NCBI RefSeq assembly: GCF_900170025.1
Contig: NZ_FWEX01000006.1
Location: forward strand, 2,347,625 to 2,411,624
Source of the DNA: Nitrospira sp. ND1
GTDB taxonomy: Bacteria; Nitrospirota; Nitrospiria; Nitrospirales; Nitrospiraceae
Reading direction: 5' to 3'
DNA length: 64,000 bases
Positions 5,273-64,000 of this stretch are shown piece by piece; the stretch's first letter is position 1; each line of letters starts with the position of its first letter. Below the pieces are notes generated by a model. It made no database searches, was not told where the DNA came from, and saw nothing but the letters and a program-made list of their open reading frames with translations. The position numbers and the translations under genes are program-made.

Positions 5273-6441
5273 AACGACTGGGGCTCCTGTAACAAGCGAT
5301 CGATTTCAGCCAGGAACAATCCTCCGCGGTGGCCGTCGGTGACGCGGTGGTCGGCGGAGAGCGACGCCATGAGCACCGGCCTCGGCACAACCGCACCATC
5401 GGCGACCCAGGGGCGTTCGACGACTTTGCCGAATCCGACCAGCGCGACTTGGGGAGGATAAATGACTCCGAACACAGTTTCCACTCCCTGTTCCCCCAGA
5501 CTCGTGACGGTGATGGTCGGGTCGGACAGTTCCGAGCTCCGTAGCGAACCGGCTCTGGCGCGCTTCACCAGGTCCTGAAAGTTCTGCATCAACTCGCCGA
5601 GGCTCAGCCGATCGGCGTCGTGCAATGCCGGCGCGACCAGTCCACCCTGGCGGAGGGAGATGGCGGTGCCGATATGAATCCGTTCACTTCTGCTCGCCTC
5701 GCCGTCTTTCCAGAGTGCATTGAGCTCGGGAACTCGGCGAAGCGCGAGGGCGACCGCTTTGATCAACAGGACACCGTACAAGAGACGCTCCGTGACGGGA
5801 CGCTGCTCGTTCGAGTCCTTCAGCCAGGTGATTGCCCGGCCCATGTCGATGGTGGTGCTGAGGTAATAGTGGGGGATCTCGCGTTTGGATCGGGCCATGG
5901 CTGCGGCGATGGTTTGCCGCATGCGTCCCTGGCGGTCGGCGGCACCGACCGGTTTGGCGACGCCCGCCGTAGCCGTGGTGGCTCGCTCGATATCGGCCAG
6001 GGTGATGGCTCCTTCCGGGCCGCTCCCCTGCAACGTGCTTGCGTCGATGCCTCGCTCGGCGGCCAGTTTTCTCGCCGCGGGTGAAATCCGCAATCGCCCG
6101 GCCTGAGAGGGCGCAGCGGCTATGCTCTCAATTCGATGGACGGGCGGAGGGGGAGCCAGTGGAGTGGTGATCGTACGGGGGGAAGCGACACTTGTTGTCG
6201 GCCGTCCCTCTTCGCGAATGATCGCCATGACCGCTCCCACCGGAACCTTGTCGCCCGGTCTGGTGATGAGTCGTTCGATGATGCCTGTGGTATGGGACTC
6301 CACGTCGATGGCGGCCTTCTCCGTGTCGACCTCCGCGATGATCTCGCCTTTGGTGATGCGGTCGCCCTCTTTCTTTTTCCACTGCACCAAGATGCCGTCG
6401 GTCATGTCGGCGCCGAGCGTCGGCATCAGGAATTCAGCCAT
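5269..6441 (-). CDS. pdhC: 2-oxo acid dehydrogenase E2, dihydrolipoamide acyltransferase
   Basis: The 390-residue protein has three parts: one lipoyl domain (residues 1-76, lipoyl lysine in DTEKAAID), a peripheral subunit-binding domain (about 115-150, with [10 protein letters not shown] and GSGPEGAI), and a catalytic acyltransferase domain (about 170-385) with the active-site motif DHRVTDG near residue 367. Pro/Ala-rich linkers separate them. It takes the acyl group made by E1 and transfers it to CoA. The gene follows E1 beta on the same strand after 88 bases. The substrate, pyruvate or another 2-oxo acid, cannot be read from the sequence; pyruvate is most likely. No E3 gene is next to it. 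Confidence 0.92.
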
Positions 6442-6529
6442 GATGGAGACTCCGTGAAGCGCGAAAGGTGAAACGTAACACGTACAATGGAACGGGCGAT
6501 GAGTGAGAGAGAAACAGCCAAGGCATCGG

Positions 6530-7504
6530 TTATCCCAACAGCCTGCGAACCGCCTTCACGATCTTGTTCGGCTGCGGCAGCGCCGCCTCTTCCAGATGTT
6601 TCGGATAGGGAATCGGGACCTCTTCGCTGCAGACCCGCGCGACCGGGGCATCCAAATCGTAAAACGTGCCCTCCATGATCTGCGCGGCGACTTCGGCGGC
6701 GAAACTTCCCGTGCGCCAGGCCTCGTCGATGACCACCGCCCGGTGGGTCTTTCGAACGGAGGTGAGGATGGTGCCGGTATCGAGGGGGCGTAGGACGCGC
6801 AGGTCCACGACCTCCGCGTCGATGCCCTCTTGAGCCAGTTGGGTGGCAGCGGCCAGTGTCTTCCACAGGCTGCCCCCGAACGTGATGAGACTCACATCCT
6901 TTCCGGGTCGGCGCACCGCGGCGCGGGAGATATCGACTGCGGGCCAGCTTTCCTCCAACTCGCCTTCCATGGAATAGAGATACGCATGCTCGAAAATAAA
7001 CACCGGGTCCGGCTCCTGGATCGCGGTGAGCAACATCCCCCGCGCATCCGTCACGGTGGCAGGCGTCAGGACCGTGATGCCGGGAATGTGCGCATACCAG
7101 CCTTCCAGGCTGTGCGAATGTTGCGCCGCCATCTGGCGGCCGGCGCCGGTAGCCATTCGAACGACCAGCGGCACGTTGAACTGACCGCCGGACATGTGCC
7201 GGAGCGTTGCCGCGTTGTTGAGAATTTGATCGAGTGCCAACAGGCTGAAATTCACCGTCATCACTTCCACAATCGGACGCATGCCGCCCAGGGCCGCGCC
7301 GATGCCGGCGCCGACGAAGGTGCTTTCCGACAGCGGCGTATCACGAATGCGTTCCGGGCCGAACTCGTCGAGCAACCCCTTGCTGCAGGCATAGGTGCCG
7401 CCGTATTTGCCGACATCCTCCCCCATGAGAAAGACGCGAGGGTTGCGCTGGAGCGCGTCCCGTAATCCCGCCCGAACGGCTTCTCTGTAGGTGATCTTGG
7501 TCAT
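6530..7504 (-). CDS. pdhB: pyruvate dehydrogenase E1 component, beta subunit
   Basis: The 324-residue protein matches the beta chain of two-subunit E1 enzymes throughout: an N-terminal thiamine-diphosphate pyrimidine-binding domain with [10 protein letters not shown] and [18 protein letters not shown], and a C-terminal transketolase-type domain that starts near residue 200 with [11 protein letters not shown]. It works with the alpha subunit encoded just upstream to decarboxylate a 2-oxo acid and acylate the lipoyl arm of E2. The start [10 protein letters not shown] was chosen by family length; the preceding site is weak. The spacers on both sides carry a GCGAAAGGTGA sequence. Confidence 0.92.
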
Positions 7505-48568: not shown

Positions 48569-49006
48569 TTACGGCCAATAATTGGCGCGTGCTTTGACGT
48601 AGGCGAAAACGATATCCCGCCGCGCGACCATGCCGATGAGCTTCTGGTCCTTTACGACCGGGAGACGGATCAGGTGCCGTTCCTGGAGGACATGAATCAG
48701 GTTCATCAGCGGCGTCTCTTCGGTGGTGGTGATGACCTCGCGGGTCATGATCTCCGAGACTGATACCTCGCGAAGATCCCTCCCCTGCTCGACGGCTTTC
48801 AGCAGATCGAACTCCGTGACCAGCCCTCGCAAGGTGCCATCTGTCTCGGTAACCGGGACACTCCCGAAATTGTGCTCGCTCAAGAGTTCTGCAACGACCA
48901 TGGCGCTGGATGCCGGGCTGACCGTGACGACGGCATCCTCCATGATCTGACGGACGATCAGTGTTTTGGGATCGCAGGCGTGGACGAAATATTCTGTGGC
49001 TCTCAT
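48569..49006 (-). CDS. CBS-domain pair protein
   Basis: The 145-residue protein consists almost only of two CBS domains (residues 15-75 and 82-142): the first starts IVRQIMEDAVVTVSP with VPVTETDGTLRGLVTEFDLL, the second VSEIMTREVITTTEE with LPVVKDQKLIGMVARRDIV. CBS pairs bind adenine nucleotides and sense energy state. With no other domain it probably acts by partner binding. GGAAGGAGGGTCCT precedes the ATG. A larger protein with four CBS domains lies at 60571. Confidence 0.93.
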   Translation of the reverse strand: MRATEYFVHACDPKTLIVRQIMEDAVVTVSPASSAMVVAELLSEHNFGSVPVTETDGTLRGLVTEFDLLKAVEQGRDLREVSVSEIMTREVITTTEETPLMNLIHVLQERHLIRLPVVKDQKLIGMVARRDIVFAYVKARANYWP

Positions 49007-49461
49007 AGGACCCTCCTTCCGTTCCACCGTGGAGTGAGGTGACAGGACTCTATGATTCAGGTGAAATTTCCCCCTTTCGAAGAGGAGCAAGCTTGGTGCC
49101 ACTGCCAGTCTTTTCAAAACCATCAAGGTGGGAGAGGAGTCAACCGTTTGGATCTTGGGGGCTCTAAGCGAACCGTTTGAAAGCATGGCGGTCCTGTCGG
49201 AAATGCGCGGATGGCGAGTGATGCCAGGGCAGGCAGGCGGTTGCATCCGTGTTGGTTGGCAGGCAGGCGTTGTGGATATTTGCGACAGGGCACGGCACCG
49301 CTGCTGCGGAAATTCTCCGCAGTCTTATTCGGCCCTGAAGCCTCCGCCGACCTCTGAAGCCCCTGTGTTGTGCCGATCGCGACTAGAGGAATGTTGGCAC
49401 GCCTGTTGCGCCTGATGGAGGCGAGGTCCCAACAGCACACCGACGCATGTTGGAGGACATG
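49007..49461. other. intergenic region between divergent genes
   Basis: About 450 bases with no supported gene. It holds the perfect sigma-54 promoter (49395) for the right-hand gene. Frames on both strands look random. Confidence 0.5.
49395..49409 (+). promoter_or_regulatory. consensus sigma-54 promoter
   Basis: TGGCACG-CCTG-TTGC agrees with the sigma-54 consensus at every conserved position and spacing. The start site would be about 49421, 40 bases before the lipoprotein gene. It may also drive the quinone reductase gene downstream. Confidence 0.6.
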
Positions 49462-53275: not shown

Positions 53276-54139
53276 ATGTCCGGACAAGGTTCACGCATCA
53301 ACCGCCTTCTGTTCTTTCTGGGCTTGTGCTGTCTGGGAGGGGTCGCTCCGGGGTGGGCGGACTATGAGGTGGTCGAGGTATCCGACGGTGGCACGGTGAA
53401 AGGCCGGGCAGTCTGGAAGGGGGCGATCCCCAAGGTGCCGCCGCTCAGAGTGTTCGCCGATCTCGATGCCTGCGGGACGCAGGTGCCGTCGCCGGTGCTG
53501 CAGATCGATCCGGCCACGAACGGCATTCAGGATGTGCTGGTGTATCTTGAGCGGGCGGAACGGGGAAAGGCTGCCGAGGCCATCTATCGCCTTCCCATGG
53601 GGAAAGGAGCGGCGGCGTCCACAGCGCAGACCTGCCAGTTCCAGCATCCGGTCTTTCCGTTTGTGCGTACGTCACAGGTCGGGCTGATCAATTTCGAACC
53701 GGTGCTGCACAATCCCCATTTTTTCACTGAAAAACAGGGCAGCCTGTTTAACCTCGCCCTGCCGACTCCGGATCGAGAAATCACCACCACGCTGCTGCGT
53801 GCCCGCGGAGTCGGATTACGGTTGCTATGCGATGTGCATGTGCACATGAACGCCTGGGCGGCGGCGTTCGATCACCCCTATTTCGCCGTGACCGATTCAC
53901 AGGGGCGTTTTGAAATCGGCGGCATCCCCCCGGGATCGTACACCCTGGTCGCCTGGCATTCCGGCTATAACATTGTCAGGTTCACAGCCTCTCGTCCGGT
54001 TTATGACGAGCCCCATGTCACCCGGAAGACGGTAACGATTGCACCGCAGGGTCTGGTCGAATCCCAATTCGAATTTCCTGTCCGTCCGGTCGAAGTCGAT
54101 TGGAAAATTGCCGGTGGGGAGGAACTTCCGCCTGAATAA
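53276..54139 (+). CDS. exported cupredoxin-like protein with carboxypeptidase regulatory-like domain
   Basis: The 287-residue protein has a signal peptide (LLFFLGLCCLGGVAPGWA). The central part resembles plastocyanin-like methylamine-utilisation proteins: VLYVYLERAER-type strands, PFVRTSQVGLINFEP with LHNPHFF, and LLCDVHVHMNAWAAAFDHPYF near 181-200 where Cys, His, His and Met could bind copper. A beta-sandwich regulatory-like end (DSQGRFEIGGIPPGSYTLVAW) follows. It should be periplasmic. It is next to the cytochrome-porin gene, so an electron-transfer or copper role is possible. Confidence 0.75.
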   Translation: MSGQGSRINRLLFFLGLCCLGGVAPGWADYEVVEVSDGGTVKGRAVWKGAIPKVPPLRVFADLDACGTQVPSPVLQIDPATNGIQDVLVYLERAERGKAAEAIYRLPMGKGAAASTAQTCQFQHPVFPFVRTSQVGLINFEPVLHNPHFFTEKQGSLFNLALPTPDREITTTLLRARGVGLRLLCDVHVHMNAWAAAFDHPYFAVTDSQGRFEIGGIPPGSYTLVAWHSGYNIVRFTASRPVYDEPHVTRKTVTIAPQGLVESQFEFPVRPVEVDWKIAGGEELPPE

Positions 54140-54212: not shown

Positions 54213-55679
54213 ATGACGTATTCAACTATACATGTCAGGGGGGCAATCGCGGCGCTGCTCGTCTTGTTCGTGCTGGTCAGCTACGAATTGAGCGGCCTCG
54301 TACAGAAGGCCGAGGCCATTCCGGCCTTCGCGCGCAAGTATGATTTTAAGTGTAATGTCTGTCACGTGCCGGGTTTCCCGAAGCTGAACGATTTCGGCAA
54401 TCTCTTCCGGGATCGCGGCTATCAACTCGGATCCGATGCGGACTCGCCGGTGTATGAAGGGATCGGCATGGGCTATTGGCCGGTGTCGCTCCGTACCACG
54501 GTCGGGTATCAGGCGGCCCAGGTGCGGACGGACGGGAGCGGCGTCACGACCGGCGGTTTCGGTTTCACCGGGCTGGACCTGTTGAGTTTCGGCACGCTGG
54601 ATCGCAATCTGGCCTTCGGCGTCGTCTTCACGCCCGGACTCGGCAGCGCAGGCTTCGGGACGGGCGCGTCGGATGGCGACTTGGAAGCGGCGTTCGTCCG
54701 TCTCATGCGGCTCGAACGGTTTCTGGGCGTGAAGAGCGCGAGCGGCGATTACCTGCTGAATCTCAAGGCCGGCAAATTCGAACTCGACCTTCCGTTCAGC
54801 GAAAAACGCAGCCCGACCTTGAACACGACCTTTGCCATGTACCATTACATGCCGGGGACGCCCTACACGGCGACGATCGGCGGCACGTCCACCAGTTCCT
54901 ATCTCAATCCGAATACCTTTGCCATCGGTGAGAATCAACCAGGCGCGGAATTGTCGGGCATCAAGAAGACGGCAGGGACCGACGGGTACTTTCGTTACTC
55001 CCTCTCCGCCCTGGCGACGAATAGTTTTTCGGGCCCCTTGGGCGGTTGCGCCTCCGGCACCACCTGTGGAACGGGTGGAAGGAACGTCAATTTTTACGGC
55101 CACGTCACCCAATCGTTCGGCGGGTATGGCATCGTGACCGGCCAACGAATCGGTCTCTTCGGTGCCTACGGGACGGCACCGACGCTGGTCAATCCCACCT
55201 GTCCGACTTGCCAGGCCGTGGCGGGCAGCGGGCAACCGTTCAGTCGTCTGGGGGTGGATGTCAGCCTGACGTTGAATGGGGAATGGAACCTGTTCGGTGC
55301 CTGGATGTGGGGCAACGACAGCAAGAACATGTTCGTCTCCCAAGGCATTGCCGACGCGCAAAACGCCTCATGGAACGGCGCCTTTGTCGAACTCGACTAT
55401 GCGCCGGCCCTGTTGCCTTTGTTCGATATGCCGGATTGGTTTTTTGCCTATCGGTACGATCTCATTCGAAACAATCGCCAGGGCGACCCGACCTTTGCGA
55501 AGAACTATAACAACGTCGATTCCCATACGCTGTTGGTCCGCTACTTCATTCATCATTCGACTAGGACCGACCTGGCCTTGCATGCCGAGTACAATAGCTA
55601 CCGCACGACCGGAGTGGGAGCCAACGGCGGCGATCTCCTCGGCCAGACGATGTTGGTCGGGTTCGATTTTGCTTACTGA
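54213..55679 (+). CDS. Cyc2-like outer-membrane cytochrome-porin fusion
   Basis: The 488-residue protein has a signal peptide (AALLVLFVLVSYELSG), a single heme motif CNVCH near residue 47 in the context AFARKYDFKCNVCHVPGFP, then LNDFGNLFRDRGYQLG, and a C-terminal region of about 430 residues with alternating strands and aromatic ends (final residues GFDFAY) typical of an outer-membrane barrel. A monoheme cytochrome joined to a porin is the layout of Cyc2/Cyt572 proteins that oxidise Fe(II) at the cell surface. GGGAGGGAGCCG precedes the ATG. Other cytochrome-porin fusions exist, so the electron donor is uncertain. Confidence 0.8.
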   Translation: MTYSTIHVRGAIAALLVLFVLVSYELSGLVQKAEAIPAFARKYDFKCNVCHVPGFPKLNDFGNLFRDRGYQLGSDADSPVYEGIGMGYWPVSLRTTVGYQAAQVRTDGSGVTTGGFGFTGLDLLSFGTLDRNLAFGVVFTPGLGSAGFGTGASDGDLEAAFVRLMRLERFLGVKSASGDYLLNLKAGKFELDLPFSEKRSPTLNTTFAMYHYMPGTPYTATIGGTSTSSYLNPNTFAIGENQPGAELSGIKKTAGTDGYFRYSLSALATNSFSGPLGGCASGTTCGTGGRNVNFYGHVTQSFGGYGIVTGQRIGLFGAYGTAPTLVNPTCPTCQAVAGSGQPFSRLGVDVSLTLNGEWNLFGAWMWGNDSKNMFVSQGIADAQNASWNGAFVELDYAPALLPLFDMPDWFFAYRYDLIRNNRQGDPTFAKNYNNVDSHTLLVRYFIHHSTRTDLALHAEYNSYRTTGVGANGGDLLGQTMLVGFDFAY

Positions 55680-55723: not shown

Positions 55724-56530
55724 ATGCGATGGGGTAAGGCGGGATGGCTTTGGCTGTGTTTGGTATCGGTCGGTTGCGCGGCTGCGATTCCTCAGGCCGA
55801 GCCTCCCTGCTTCTCCTGCGACGACCAGCGGTTGGTGCGAATTGTGCCGCTGGCGAAGCTTCGGTCGAACGATCAGGGGAGGCGATTTCAGCATCCGGTG
55901 ACTCTGACGCAAGCAGAGTGGGAGACACTCCTACGAGGTCTGATGGTGCGCAGCGTACACAGCCCTTTGCTCGGGCCGTCGTACCAGGGCGCCACGGAAC
56001 CGTTGTTTCTCGATGAAGAGGTTCGCGCTCTGGGATCCTCGCTCCGGCAGGCGTTTCAACAGGCAACGGAGCAAGAGGCGGTCGTCTTCGCGACGGCGCG
56101 GGCGACGGATGAGGGCCCGGCGCAAGTGACGTCAGGAGCCTGGTTTGCCGAGGCCGGCCGAATCCATCTACGGTTGCCCAACTGCCGAATAGCCGTGACC
56201 ATGCCGTCCATACGGAGGCAGATCTGGATCGATCCGCTATTTGCGCAGGCCGGAACATTCTATGAACTGGCGCCCGGGAAACACCAGGCCTTGGTGAGCA
56301 AGCCGTCCGGTGGCGGGGGGCTGTTTCGCCCCGATCCGGTGGAACTGGTGATCGACGATTCCGGACGCAGTGAGGCGGTGGTGCCGGCTGTACCGGAGGG
56401 AACGCCCACGGTTCCCTCGGCTTCCTCGTTGGAGGAACGGCTTGCCGTGCTCAAGCGCCTTCACGACCAGGGGTTGATCACGGGAGAGGAGTATCGCCTG
56501 AAGAAACAGCAGCTGTTGGATCGGTTGTGA
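55724..56530 (+). CDS. lipoprotein with C-terminal SHOCT domain
   Basis: The 268-residue protein has a lipobox LVSVGC near residue 18. The mature part includes a beta-rich domain (SGAWFAEAGRIHLRLPNC and IWIDPLFAQAG) and a GGGG linker. It ends with a SHOCT helix pair, ERLAVLKRLHDQGLITGEEYRLKKQQLL, a short oligomerisation module. GGAGGAGGGGAACC before the ATG supports the start. It follows the cytochrome-porin gene after 44 bases and could be part of the same operon. Confidence 0.8.
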   Translation: MRWGKAGWLWLCLVSVGCAAAIPQAEPPCFSCDDQRLVRIVPLAKLRSNDQGRRFQHPVTLTQAEWETLLRGLMVRSVHSPLLGPSYQGATEPLFLDEEVRALGSSLRQAFQQATEQEAVVFATARATDEGPAQVTSGAWFAEAGRIHLRLPNCRIAVTMPSIRRQIWIDPLFAQAGTFYELAPGKHQALVSKPSGGGGLFRPDPVELVIDDSGRSEAVVPAVPEGTPTVPSASSLEERLAVLKRLHDQGLITGEEYRLKKQQLLDRL

Positions 56531-58053: not shown

Positions 58054-58809
58054 TTATTGCCGCCGCTCTTCCGCATAACGACTGTGGAGTTTGACCGGCG
58101 CAGCCCGCTTTCTTCGCATGCGAATGTTGAGCATTTCCACCGTGACGGAGAAGGCCATGGAGAAGTAGATATAGCCCTTCGGCACATGCACGTCGAACCC
58201 TTCGACCATCAAGGTCACGCCCACGAGAATCAGAAACGAGAGGGCCAGAATTTTGATCGTGGGGTGTTTATCCACAAAATCCCCGATGGCTTTGGCCGCC
58301 ATCAACATCACCACCACGGCGAGAATGATTGCGATCGCCATGATCGAGACATGTTCGACCAGGCCGACCGCCGTAATCACCGAATCCAACGAAAAGACGA
58401 TATCCAGGAGCGCGATCTGAACAAGCACCATCCCCAGGCTGGCAGCGGCGGCCGGGGTCTCGCCGCCCTCGATCCCCTCCAGGCTGTTGTGGATTTCGTG
58501 CGTGGCTTTGGCCATGAGGAACAGGCCGCCGCCGACTAGAATCAGATCCCGCCCGGACACGCCGTGGCCCAAGATCGTCACCCAGGGATGGGTGAGTCCC
58601 ATGACCCAGGAAATGGAAAACAAGAGTCCCAGGCGCGCCATCATGGCCAGGCCCAGGCCCACTTGGCGTGCGACGGCGCGCTGATGCTCGGGGAGTCGTC
58701 CGACGAGGACGGAGAGAAAGATAATGTTGTCGATCCCCAGCACGATTTCCAGCGCGGTCAAAGTTCCCAGGGCGATCCATATTTCAGGATTGGCAAGCCA
58801 GTCCAACAT
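58054..58809 (-). CDS. TerC-family membrane protein
   Basis: The 251-residue protein has seven membrane segments and the TerC signatures: ALEIVLGIDNIIFLSVLVG near 19-36, IVFSLDSVITAVGL near 142-155, and MVEGFDVHVPKGYIYFSMAFS. The two Asp-containing motifs in the membrane suggest metal-ion transport (Mn efflux in related proteins) or an assembly role. The start MLDWLANP follows GGAGCCGCTG. Confidence 0.94.
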   Translation of the reverse strand: MLDWLANPEIWIALGTLTALEIVLGIDNIIFLSVLVGRLPEHQRAVARQVGLGLAMMARLGLLFSISWVMGLTHPWVTILGHGVSGRDLILVGGGLFLMAKATHEIHNSLEGIEGGETPAAAASLGMVLVQIALLDIVFSLDSVITAVGLVEHVSIMAIAIILAVVVMLMAAKAIGDFVDKHPTIKILALSFLILVGVTLMVEGFDVHVPKGYIYFSMAFSVTVEMLNIRMRRKRAAPVKLHSRYAEERRQ

Positions 58810-59020
58810 CAGCGGCTCCATTCGTGAAAGAGAGGGCGAGCGGGTCGATCTGTCATGCGAGGATGTGTAGCATACGATACGTATCGAGGAAGTCTACCGT
58901 TCCAAGCGGGTCTACGCAATGAAAACCAGTCGATAGGCGGTGTTGGGTGAGCGAATGGATCGACCGCGGAGGTGGCTATGGGAACGGCCGTTCCTTCAGG
59001 AAGAATCGGAGCCGTCGGGG

Positions 59021-60570: not shown

Positions 60571-61425
60571 TTAAGTGGTCGATCCCCGCTTCAGAAAGTC
60601 CGGGCGATCCCGGATAGCGACCATCTTCACCAGGTCGCGGATCGACAGGACTCCGACGACCTTCTCATGGTCCGTGACAGCCAGGTGGCGGATTCGTTTC
60701 GCGGACATCCGTTCACTGGCATCGCGGATGGTGCGATTGATGTCGATGTCGACCAACGGCGAATTCATGAGCGCGCCCACACGCAGGGTCAGCGGATCAA
60801 GCTGATAAGCCAGCAGTTTGCGCACCAGGTCGCCTTCGGTGATGATTCCCACGAGCTCCTCGGCTTCCATGACGAACAGCGCCCCGATGTGTTTATCCGC
60901 CATGCGTTGCGCCGCCTCGAGGGCCGTTTCGTCGCTGCCGATGGTTTCGATGGCAGTTTTCATCAAGACACTCAACGGCCGGTAGACATTCGTGAGCGCC
61001 TGCACCGGCCCGCCGTCTGCATCGACGAAGTGCCTCACCAGATCGCGTATCGAGATGATTCCGAGCACATCCGTGCCTTCGGTCACCACGAGGTGCCGCA
61101 CGTTTTTACTTTGCATCAAATGACTGGCATCGACCATCGGACGAGTCGGCGCGATCGTGATGAGGGGACTGCTCATGATGTCCGCCATGCTGGTTCGAGA
61201 GGGAACGCGGCCCGGCGCCAGTACCTTGGCCACGAGATCGGTTTCGGTGACGATTCCCGCAATCCGACAATCGTTGTGCGGACGATCGAAGCATTCGATC
61301 AGCACAGAGCCGACGCTTCGCGTCCGCATTTTGGTGGCGACGGTCACGACGGAGGTATCCTGTGGGACGACCTCCAATTGGCGGTGCATATAGTCGCTGA
61401 CGTGCTGGCCCGATACGGTCGTCAT
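60571..61425 (-). CDS. four-CBS-domain protein
   Basis: The 284-residue protein is made of four CBS motifs in two pairs: VSDYMHRQLEVVPQD, MADIMSSPLITIAPT, LSVLMKTAIETIGSDE and VGALMNSPLVDIDIN mark the starts of the four. Each ends with a G-I/V-S/T-x-x-D-L motif such as GIISIRDLVRHF. Two CBS dimers make a nucleotide-sensing disc. It is next to the cation ATPase gene on the same strand, and might regulate it. Confidence 0.93.
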   Translation of the reverse strand: MTTVSGQHVSDYMHRQLEVVPQDTSVVTVATKMRTRSVGSVLIECFDRPHNDCRIAGIVTETDLVAKVLAPGRVPSRTSMADIMSSPLITIAPTRPMVDASHLMQSKNVRHLVVTEGTDVLGIISIRDLVRHFVDADGGPVQALTNVYRPLSVLMKTAIETIGSDETALEAAQRMADKHIGALFVMEAEELVGIITEGDLVRKLLAYQLDPLTLRVGALMNSPLVDIDINRTIRDASERMSAKRIRHLAVTDHEKVVGVLSIRDLVKMVAIRDRPDFLKRGSTT

Positions 61426-61517: not shown

Positions 61518-64000
61518 TCACGTCCCCCGACCGGGTTGCAGAGAGAGTCGAGCGCCCATTCGCCCGCGGACGAATTTCTGAAGTTCGTCTGCCAGGAGCA
61601 AGCCGATTGCCCCTACGGCCAACGGCCCGAAGATCCAGGCCGGGAGCGAGGCGGTGCCCAAGACCAGATGTCCGACCGGACTGTAGGTCATGATGAGCAG
61701 GATGGTCAGTTCGACGGCGACACCCACCAGGATCAAGGGATTGCTGAACCAGCCGAGCCGGAACGCCGCGATGCGATCGGAGCGGCAGGCAAAGACATTG
61801 GCGACCTGGGCCGCCACGATACCGGCAAAGGTGACGGTGGTTGCTTCCTTATACAAAGGGGAATTCCAGTCGAGCGCGGCTCCCCAGCTCCAGCCCTGGC
61901 TATATAAATAGAGAAAAAACCCTCCCATGGCAATGCCGGCTTCGATCAATCCCAAAAAACCGTAGGCTCTCAGGAGCACATCCCGGCTGAGGAGTCGTTC
62001 GGTGCGGGGTCGTGGGGGGTCGTCCATCACCCCGTCCTCCGGCGGTTCCGCGGCCAGTGCCAGTGCCGGCACCATGTCCGTTCCCAAATCGACGGCCAGA
62101 ATTTGCGGGACCGTGAGAGCGAGCGGCATCGACGAGAGTCCGAATCCCAAATACGGTACGATCTCCGGGACGTTGCTGGCCAACACATAGGTCACGAACT
62201 TGCGAATATTGGTATAGACGGCCCGGCCCTCTTCGATGGCATGGACAATGGTGGCGAAATTGTCGTCGAGCAGAATCATGGAGGCCGTCTCTTTGGCCAC
62301 GTCCGTTCCGGCAACACCCATGGCGATGCCGATGTCCGCGGTTTTCAAGGCCGGCGCGTCATTGACCCCGTCGCCCGTCACGGCGACCACTTCGCGCATT
62401 TCTTTGAGCGCCGTGACGATGCGCATTTTATGTCGGGGCGCCATGCGGGCGAAGATCGGATCCAGTTCGTCTGTCGTCGTCGGCGTGAGTAAGCGGCGTA
62501 GCTGGTCGTTGTTCATGGTGTCAATGTGGGCGCCTTCGATCACCGGTACAAAGCGGCTAGGCCCTGTCGGCGCCGAGTCGGGCGCAAGGCCGATCTTCTG
62601 CGCAATCGCCAGCGCCGTCAGGGGATGGTCTCCCGTAATCATCATGACGCGGACCCCGGCCCGCCGGCATTTTTTGATCGCGTCCGGTACTTCACGGTGT
62701 GGCGGGTCCATCATGGCGACGAGTCCGAGAAACGTCAGTCCCTGTTCTACCGTGTCGGCCTCCAATTGCTCCACGCCGCGTTCGACTTCTCGCATGGCCA
62801 CGGCCAGCACCCGGTACGCCTGCTGAGCGAAGGCCTGACTCTGGGCCAGCACTTTTTTGCGGCAGTCGACGGTGAGCTCGGCGGGTGCCGCCGATCCCTG
62901 CTGCCTGGTGCACAACGGCAAGACCGATTCCGGCGCGCCTTTGGTGAAGGCGAGCAGCCGACCTTCGCTCCAGTGCAGCGTCGTCATCCGTTTGCGATCC
63001 GCATCGAAGGGGATTTCGCCCATTCGCCGGAGCGGCGGGCGGTGGAGGAGTCCGTGGTCCGCGGCAAACTCCAGCAGCGCCGTCTCAGTGGGATCGCCGG
63101 TGGTGCGGCTACGTCCGTCCGGGTGGCGCGTGCGCTTGGCGTTGTTGCAATGAACGATGGCGTCGAACAGGGGCCGCCAGCCTTCCGATTCGGGCGCGGT
63201 GATGAGGCGATTCCTGGTGAACAAACAGCCCTCTCGCGATTCGACGACGAGGTCGTCCACGTAGAGCCTGTCGAGCCGCATCCGGTTTTCCGTCAGTGTC
63301 CCGGTCTTGTCGGTGCAGATCACGGTGGTGCACCCCAGTGTCTCAACGGACGCGAGGTGTTTGATGAGCGCTTTGCGCGCGGCCATGCGTTGGCTGCCCA
63401 TGGCGAGGGCCAGGGTGACGGTGGGCAGAAGCCCTTCGGGCACATTGGCGACGATGATGCCGATGCCGAAAATCGTGCTCGCCCAGAATCCCAATCCCAT
63501 CCCGACGCCGATGGTGAAGAAGATCAGACCCATCAGCAGTGAGAGCCCGGCGACGACATGCGTCACCTTGACGATTTCCTGTTGGAGCGGGCTCAGCCCG
63601 GTTTGTACCGTTGTCGTCAGATGCGCGATTTTGCCGAATTCGGTGTTGAGGCCGGTGGCAAAGACCACGCCCTGGCCATGGCCGGAGAGGACCGTGGTTC
63701 CGGCGAAGGCCAGATTCGCAATGTCGAGCGGATGGCCGTCGGTGATGGGATCGGCCGACCGTCGTTGCGGTTTCGATTCGCCGGTGAGAGAGGAGTTATC
63801 GACGCGCATGCCGACGGCTGCGGTGAGTCTCGCATCGGCAGGAATCTGCTCACCCTCTTCCAGCACGAGCACATCGCCCGGTACCAGTTCGCTGCGGGCA
63901 ATCTGTTGCTGTTGTCCGTCGCGAAGGACCCAGGCTTGGGCCGGCAGCATGCTGCGTAAAGCCTGAACCGCGCGTTCGGCCTTATACTCTTGCAGGAAGG
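61518..64000 (-). CDS. P2-type cation-transporting ATPase (5' end outside window)
   Basis: About 827 C-terminal residues are in the window. Visible are the actuator loop TGESKPQ, PEGLLPTVTLALAMG in membrane helix 4, the phosphorylation motif CTDKTGTLTENRM, the hinge TGDGVNDAPALK, and six C-terminal membrane helices of the cation-ATPase C domain. The VANVPEGLL and KHLASVETLG pieces are closer to Na+/K+-ATPase-like P2C enzymes than to heavy-metal pumps. The ion is not certain (Na+, K+ or Ca2+). The gene begins beyond position 64000; the visible frame is intact. Confidence 0.93.
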   Translation of the reverse strand, partial: FLQEYKAERAVQALRSMLPAQAWVLRDGQQQQIARSELVPGDVLVLEEGEQIPADARLTAAVGMRVDNSSLTGESKPQRRSADPITDGHPLDIANLAFAGTTVLSGHGQGVVFATGLNTEFGKIAHLTTTVQTGLSPLQQEIVKVTHVVAGLSLLMGLIFFTIGVGMGLGFWASTIFGIGIIVANVPEGLLPTVTLALAMGSQRMAARKALIKHLASVETLGCTTVICTDKTGTLTENRMRLDRLYVDDLVVESREGCLFTRNRLITAPESEGWRPLFDAIVHCNNAKRTRHPDGRSRTTGDPTETALLEFAADHGLLHRPPLRRMGEIPFDADRKRMTTLHWSEGRLLAFTKGAPESVLPLCTRQQGSAAPAELTVDCRKKVLAQSQAFAQQAYRVLAVAMREVERGVEQLEADTVEQGLTFLGLVAMMDPPHREVPDAIKKCRRAGVRVMMITGDHPLTALAIAQKIGLAPDSAPTGPSRFVPVIEGAHIDTMNNDQLRRLLTPTTTDELDPIFARMAPRHKMRIVTALKEMREVVAVTGDGVNDAPALKTADIGIAMGVAGTDVAKETASMILLDDNFATIVHAIEEGRAVYTNIRKFVTYVLASNVPEIVPYLGFGLSSMPLALTVPQILAVDLGTDMVPALALAAEPPEDGVMDDPPRPRTERLLSRDVLLRAYGFLGLIEAGIAMGGFFLYLYSQGWSWGAALDWNSPLYKEATTVTFAGIVAAQVANVFACRSDRIAAFRLGWFSNPLILVGVAVELTILLIMTYSPVGHLVLGTASLPAWIFGPLAVGAIGLLLADELQKFVRGRMGARLSLQPGRGT

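Follow-up and report, generated by a model that had tools for sequence, protein, structure and literature searches.

A Cyc2-family cytochrome-porin encoded next to an amicyanin-like cupredoxin in Nitrospira sp. ND1

Background

Does a nitrifier of the genus Nitrospira possess a route by which electrons are drawn into the cell from outside? The question is raised by an open reading frame of Nitrospira sp. ND1, lying in a 64,000-nucleotide stretch of its genome (contig NZ_FWEX01000006.1, positions 2,347,625 to 2,411,624; hereafter the window, to which coordinates refer unless otherwise stated). The original prediction read it as a Cyc2-like monoheme cytochrome-porin akin to Cyt572 of Leptospirillum, pointing to extracellular electron uptake.

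Cyc2 proteins have been defined by a signal peptide, the motif AXPXFAR[Q/K][T/Y] upstream of one CXXCH, a PXL four residues past the latter, a length of no less than 365 aa and an OprO/OprP-like barrel of 16 strands (Keffer et al. 2021, PMC8406198). As for Nitrospira, those passages of the FeGenie paper (2020, PMC7005843) that concern the genus place Ca. Nitrospira defluvii among the taxa with iron-oxidation potential via cyc2 or sulfocyanin homologs, and suggest that it could gain energy from iron; likewise, passages of a 2022 paper (PMC9040806) report Cyc2 homologs in nitrite- or ammonia-oxidising Nitrospirales. Since such homologs, of the same gene family and in the same genus, are already reported there, the ND1 protein is not new in kind. 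The same passages state the presence of Cyc2, the pairing with a cupredoxin that is described below being unmentioned in them, and no description of this pairing was found in the literature covered, to which most subscription journals do not belong.

Results and discussion

The open reading frame occupies exactly 54213-55679 and encodes 488 aa plus a stop codon, behind a good Shine-Dalgarno sequence (GGGAGGGAGCCG-ATG); the gene, its parts, the cupredoxin gene and the lipoprotein gene discussed below all lie on the forward strand. Orthologs occur in 17 named loci, almost all of them Nitrospira records, with 74-97% identity among those covering the protein. That of Ca. Nitrospira defluvii (FP929003.1) is about 96% identical, in agreement with the expectation of a Nitrospira-like genome. 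Of the 16 genomes sampled from the same genus, 13 carry a close ortholog (counted from the table of matches), and some match occurs in 116 of the 296 genomes of the phylum sample. The dN/dS of the gene against its orthologs is 0.04-0.10: it is under strong purifying selection and is therefore a functional gene, a pseudogene or chance reading frame being ruled out by the value of 0.04 together with the orthologs.

By eye, residues 1-35 (54213-54317) read as a signal peptide with predicted cleavage between AEA and IP, so that the protein is predicted to be exported. Across the cleavage site runs the Cyc2-specific motif AIPAFARKY (54315-54341), separated by DFK from CNVCH (residues 47-51, 54351-54365), the only CXXCH of the reading frame and its single c-type heme site; after VPGF follows PKL (54378-54386), the PXL of the published consensus. 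The whole context, AFARKYDFK-CNVCH-VPGF-PKLNDFGNLFRDRGY, agrees with the string AFAR...CxxCH...PxLNxFGxxFxxxGY that had been predicted, as do the lone heme motif behind a signal peptide and, further on, a barrel with an aromatic end. When back-translated, the pattern AXPXFAR-(5 aa)-CXXCH has two matches across the entire 4.45-Mb genome, both of them in the sense orientation of genuine open reading frames, against none for the same pattern written backwards; the heme-region motif is therefore not due to chance.

The remainder of the protein is a predicted beta-barrel of about 16-17 strands (54483-55676), closing with ...LVGFDFAY, i.e. on a tyrosine. The best PDB folds for the structure model are OprP (2o4v, rank 1) and OprO (4rjw, rank 3), the same templates named for the Cyc2 of Mariprofundus (PMC8406198), in a model with a mean pLDDT of 42, poor in its first half, heme domain included. 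The model of the neighbouring cupredoxin is equally poor (pLDDT 42), in both cases probably from shallow alignments, and was left unused. A simple test of amphipathicity for the barrel is borderline (p 0.05-0.11). Neither Pfam nor NCBIfam holds a model matching the protein, phmmer against the PDB returned chance matches only, and no solved relative was reached with a profile built from 14 relatives. The mature protein would reside in the outer membrane and carry heme at its single site. A system of the MtrAB/PioAB/MtoAB type, in which a 26-strand porin works with a separate multiheme cytochrome, is excluded by the single heme, the 488-aa length and the lack of PF11854, a search with which found no MtrB/PioB-type porin gene in the ND1 genome.

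In a tree of 51 Cyc2-like proteins, the ND1 lineage groups at 100/100 support in one clade with a family, here f20, taken as Leptospirillum-type Cyc2 (the Cyt572 lineage, cluster 3). This assignment rests on the site of the Leptospirillum FISH probe LF655, which occurs three times in G019, one of the genomes from which f20 proteins come, and once in G010, with full-length 16S genes at one of the G019 loci and at the G010 locus. The alignment with the f20 proteins spans nearly the whole length, and the ND1 barrel alone, with the heme region removed, matches them at E values of 4e-20 to 8e-15. Cluster-1-like proteins (L064, L090 and L080), in contrast, are not matched by the barrel alone, have only the heme region in common with the ND1 sequence and stand far off in the tree; the cluster 1 protein of Mariprofundus ferrooxydans PV-1 shares with ND1 the heme motif, the size class and an OprP/OprO-like predicted barrel. 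Like the ND1 protein, Leptospirillum-type Cyc2 has a single N-terminal heme in the same motif context (AYPGF[AS]R-x4-PC-x2-CHIQWPKL), and its homology to ND1 extends through the barrel at 29-31% identity. The differences are that these are proteins of acidophiles, with open frames of 557-562 aa as against 488 aa, that they read AYPGF where ND1 has AIPAF, and that no cupredoxin gene was seen within flanks of about 2 kb in the four loci examined, whereas ND1 has one. Uncharacterised proteins of the same class (families f5 and f4) are closer still, the scores of f5 exceeding those of f20, and the tree does not settle the branching order of f20, f5 and the ND1 lineage within the clade.

Taken together, motif, length, single heme, predicted barrel fold, barrel-level homology and the 100/100 clade support a placement in the Cyc2 family that, judged from sequence, is near certain. 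The Cyc2/Cyt572 call thus held, in that, apart from f5 and f4, the closest relatives beyond its own group are proteins taken as Leptospirillum-type members of this family, and this applies to the barrel too.

What lies beyond that earlier reading is an upstream cupredoxin gene and a second, paralogous operon. The former (53276-54139) ends 73 bp upstream of cyc2 and encodes, by domain and profile searches, an exported amicyanin-like cupredoxin with a C-terminal CarboxypepD_reg-like beta-sandwich. A profile of ten divergent homologs matches solved amicyanins (best E 1.3e-6), and in the alignment the first histidine, H145 (53708-53710), and the C-x2-H-x2-M loop, C185-D-V-H188-V-H-M191 (53828-53848), coincide with the copper ligands of the type-1 set H...C-x2-H-x2-M. 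N139, H145, C185, H188 and M191, hence all four ligands and the nearby asparagine, are invariant in the ten homologs. The protein is thus predicted to bind copper, and is probably the periplasmic acceptor of electrons from Cyc2.

The linkage of the two families is not confined to ND1. In the phylum sample, all of the best 20 cupredoxin matches lie within 5 kb of a Cyc2-like gene, a ranking inflated for some of the ten profile members, which were chosen for their nearness to such genes; among the best 101 matches the figure is 37, where about 0.4 would be expected, the 37 pairs being not all independent, for related genomes share ancestry. Outside the ortholog group of ND1 Cyc2 fall 23 of the 37 pairs, in 20 genomes, and the cupredoxin homologs adjoin Cyc2-like genes of several separate lineages (loci L050, L072, L074, L080, L083, L088 and L092). 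Some orthologs of ND1 Cyc2 have no cupredoxin nearby, e.g. at L016, with 6 kb inspected on each side.

The second Cyc2-like gene of the ND1 genome (481 aa, AIPAFARKYALNCTTCH) belongs, according to the tree, to another lineage than the protein at 54213-55679. Its operon (contig C6:1095474-1098499, or 4975-8002 of L092) contains, in this order, the Cyc2-like porin, a cytochrome with two CxxCH, a cupredoxin/CarboxypepD_reg homolog and a hybrid histidine kinase.

Several side observations concern the neighbourhoods of these genes. Directly downstream of cyc2, a putative lipoprotein with a SHOCT domain (55724-56530) is the most constant neighbour on that side, adjoining nearly all orthologs, even those without cupredoxin, as well as the divergent Cyc2-like genes of L071, L076 and L082. 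An O-methyltransferase gene (PF00891, 52040-53053), upstream of the cupredoxin gene, is conserved in the N. defluvii group. By eye, the frames at 48569-49246, 58054-58821, 60571-61425 and 61518-63950 appear to encode two CBS-domain-like proteins, a TerC-like membrane protein and a cation-transporting P-type ATPase, and genes resembling subunits of 2-oxoacid:ferredoxin oxidoreductase lie on the opposite strand just upstream of the second operon. In L080, from a Nitrospirota genome of the same class (G271), the gene at 5862-7355 encodes a cluster-1-like Cyc2 (AIPAFARQT...CHFQHYP) which is paired with the cupredoxin family and has a second Cyc2-like gene nearby.

As to function, the reading I favour, with a probability of roughly 0.55 for the model as a whole, is that the heme of the Cyc2 barrel takes an electron, most likely from Fe2+, and passes it by way of the cupredoxin to the respiratory chain. 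The N-terminal single-heme domain would plug the periplasmic mouth of a roughly 16-stranded outer-membrane barrel; the donor, soluble and reduced and in all likelihood Fe2+, would come in from outside through the barrel and hand a single electron to the heme at the periplasmic end. From there the electron would move to the blue-copper protein of amicyanin type that the upstream gene encodes, and onward through the pool of periplasmic cytochromes into the respiratory chain. Directly supported are the family membership, the conservation of the gene and its likewise conserved proximity to a cupredoxin whose copper site is intact. The entry of Fe2+ and the reduction of the heme are suggested by likeness to characterised Cyc2, and the step from heme to copper may be compared with Acidithiobacillus ferrooxidans, where electrons are modelled to go from the outer-membrane Cyc2 to the cupredoxin rusticyanin (PMC10654088). 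The analogy is a functional one, i.e. a periplasmic blue-copper protein as next carrier; unlike in that organism, the ND1 cupredoxin is amicyanin-like and fused to a CarboxypepD_reg-like domain, and the layout of the rus operon is absent.

Nitrospira are known to grow with nitrite, ammonia or H2 and are not known to do so with Fe(II), which counts against the Fe(II) model, as do the orthologs without a nearby cupredoxin, the four Leptospirillum-type loci and the fact that the cluster holding Cyt572 is the one of the three whose function is rated most uncertain (PMC8406198). The rival that survives best is that the protein is indeed an electron-uptake porin of the Cyc2 family, but one whose donor is Mn(II), humics or a partner cell, or which oxidises Fe(II) for detoxification only and not to support growth. 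Nitrospira can draw on other sources of energy, and Cyc2 homologs are also carried by many organisms in which iron oxidation is not known (PMC8406198). Such homologs have been proposed to serve electrode uptake in Tenderia and, in the relevant passages of PMC9040806, lithotrophy on Mn(II) in the Manganitrophaceae, which belong to the same phylum. Against another donor speak the closest characterised lineage, Leptospirillum Cyt572, which is an iron oxidase, and the three Cyc2 proteins so far tested, one per cluster, all of which oxidise iron (PMC8406198); I regard this rival as possible, if rather doubtful.

A distinctly improbable reading sees the barrel as a channel that takes up a metal (copper or iron) and has a redox heme, and the cupredoxin as handling copper, not carrying electrons. 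The partner's predicted copper binding would agree with it, and so would its homologs on rhizobial plasmids, which adjoin SCO-family and hemA genes near those of a cbb3-type oxidase. Yet this neighbourhood suits a periplasmic electron carrier at least equally, the copper site is a complete type-1 electron-transfer set, characterised Cyc2 proteins oxidise iron, and the sole CopB match among the relatives is not significant (E 0.17). That the locus runs outward, exporting electrons, or serves as a redox sensor has very little to recommend it: a lone heme inside a barrel could in principle work both ways, and the second operon holds a gene for a hybrid histidine kinase, but Nitrospira live for the most part as aerobic lithotrophs on donors of high potential, and a cupredoxin acceptor, whose potential is usually high, favours uptake.

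Conclusions

Extracellular electron uptake by Fe(II) oxidation, the reading preferred here, may then be part of the repertoire of ND1. The useful addition to what was already reported is the conserved pairing of a cupredoxin with Cyc2 across Nitrospirota. It might, tentatively, be extended to a joint claim: that Nitrospirota hold a widespread and previously undescribed Cyc2-cupredoxin module, in which different Cyc2 lineages (Cyt572-like, cluster-1-like and Nitrospira-specific) are combined with the same amicyanin/CarboxypepD_reg fusion, and which would give nitrifiers a dedicated periplasmic route from extracellular Fe(II). The conserved cupredoxin provides a concrete acceptor, so that the question can be put to the test with two recombinant proteins. 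Nitrospira rank with the commonest nitrifiers, and a capacity to take electrons from dissolved iron as well would couple the cycling of nitrogen with that of iron in one organism, in settings such as soils, groundwater and water treatment.
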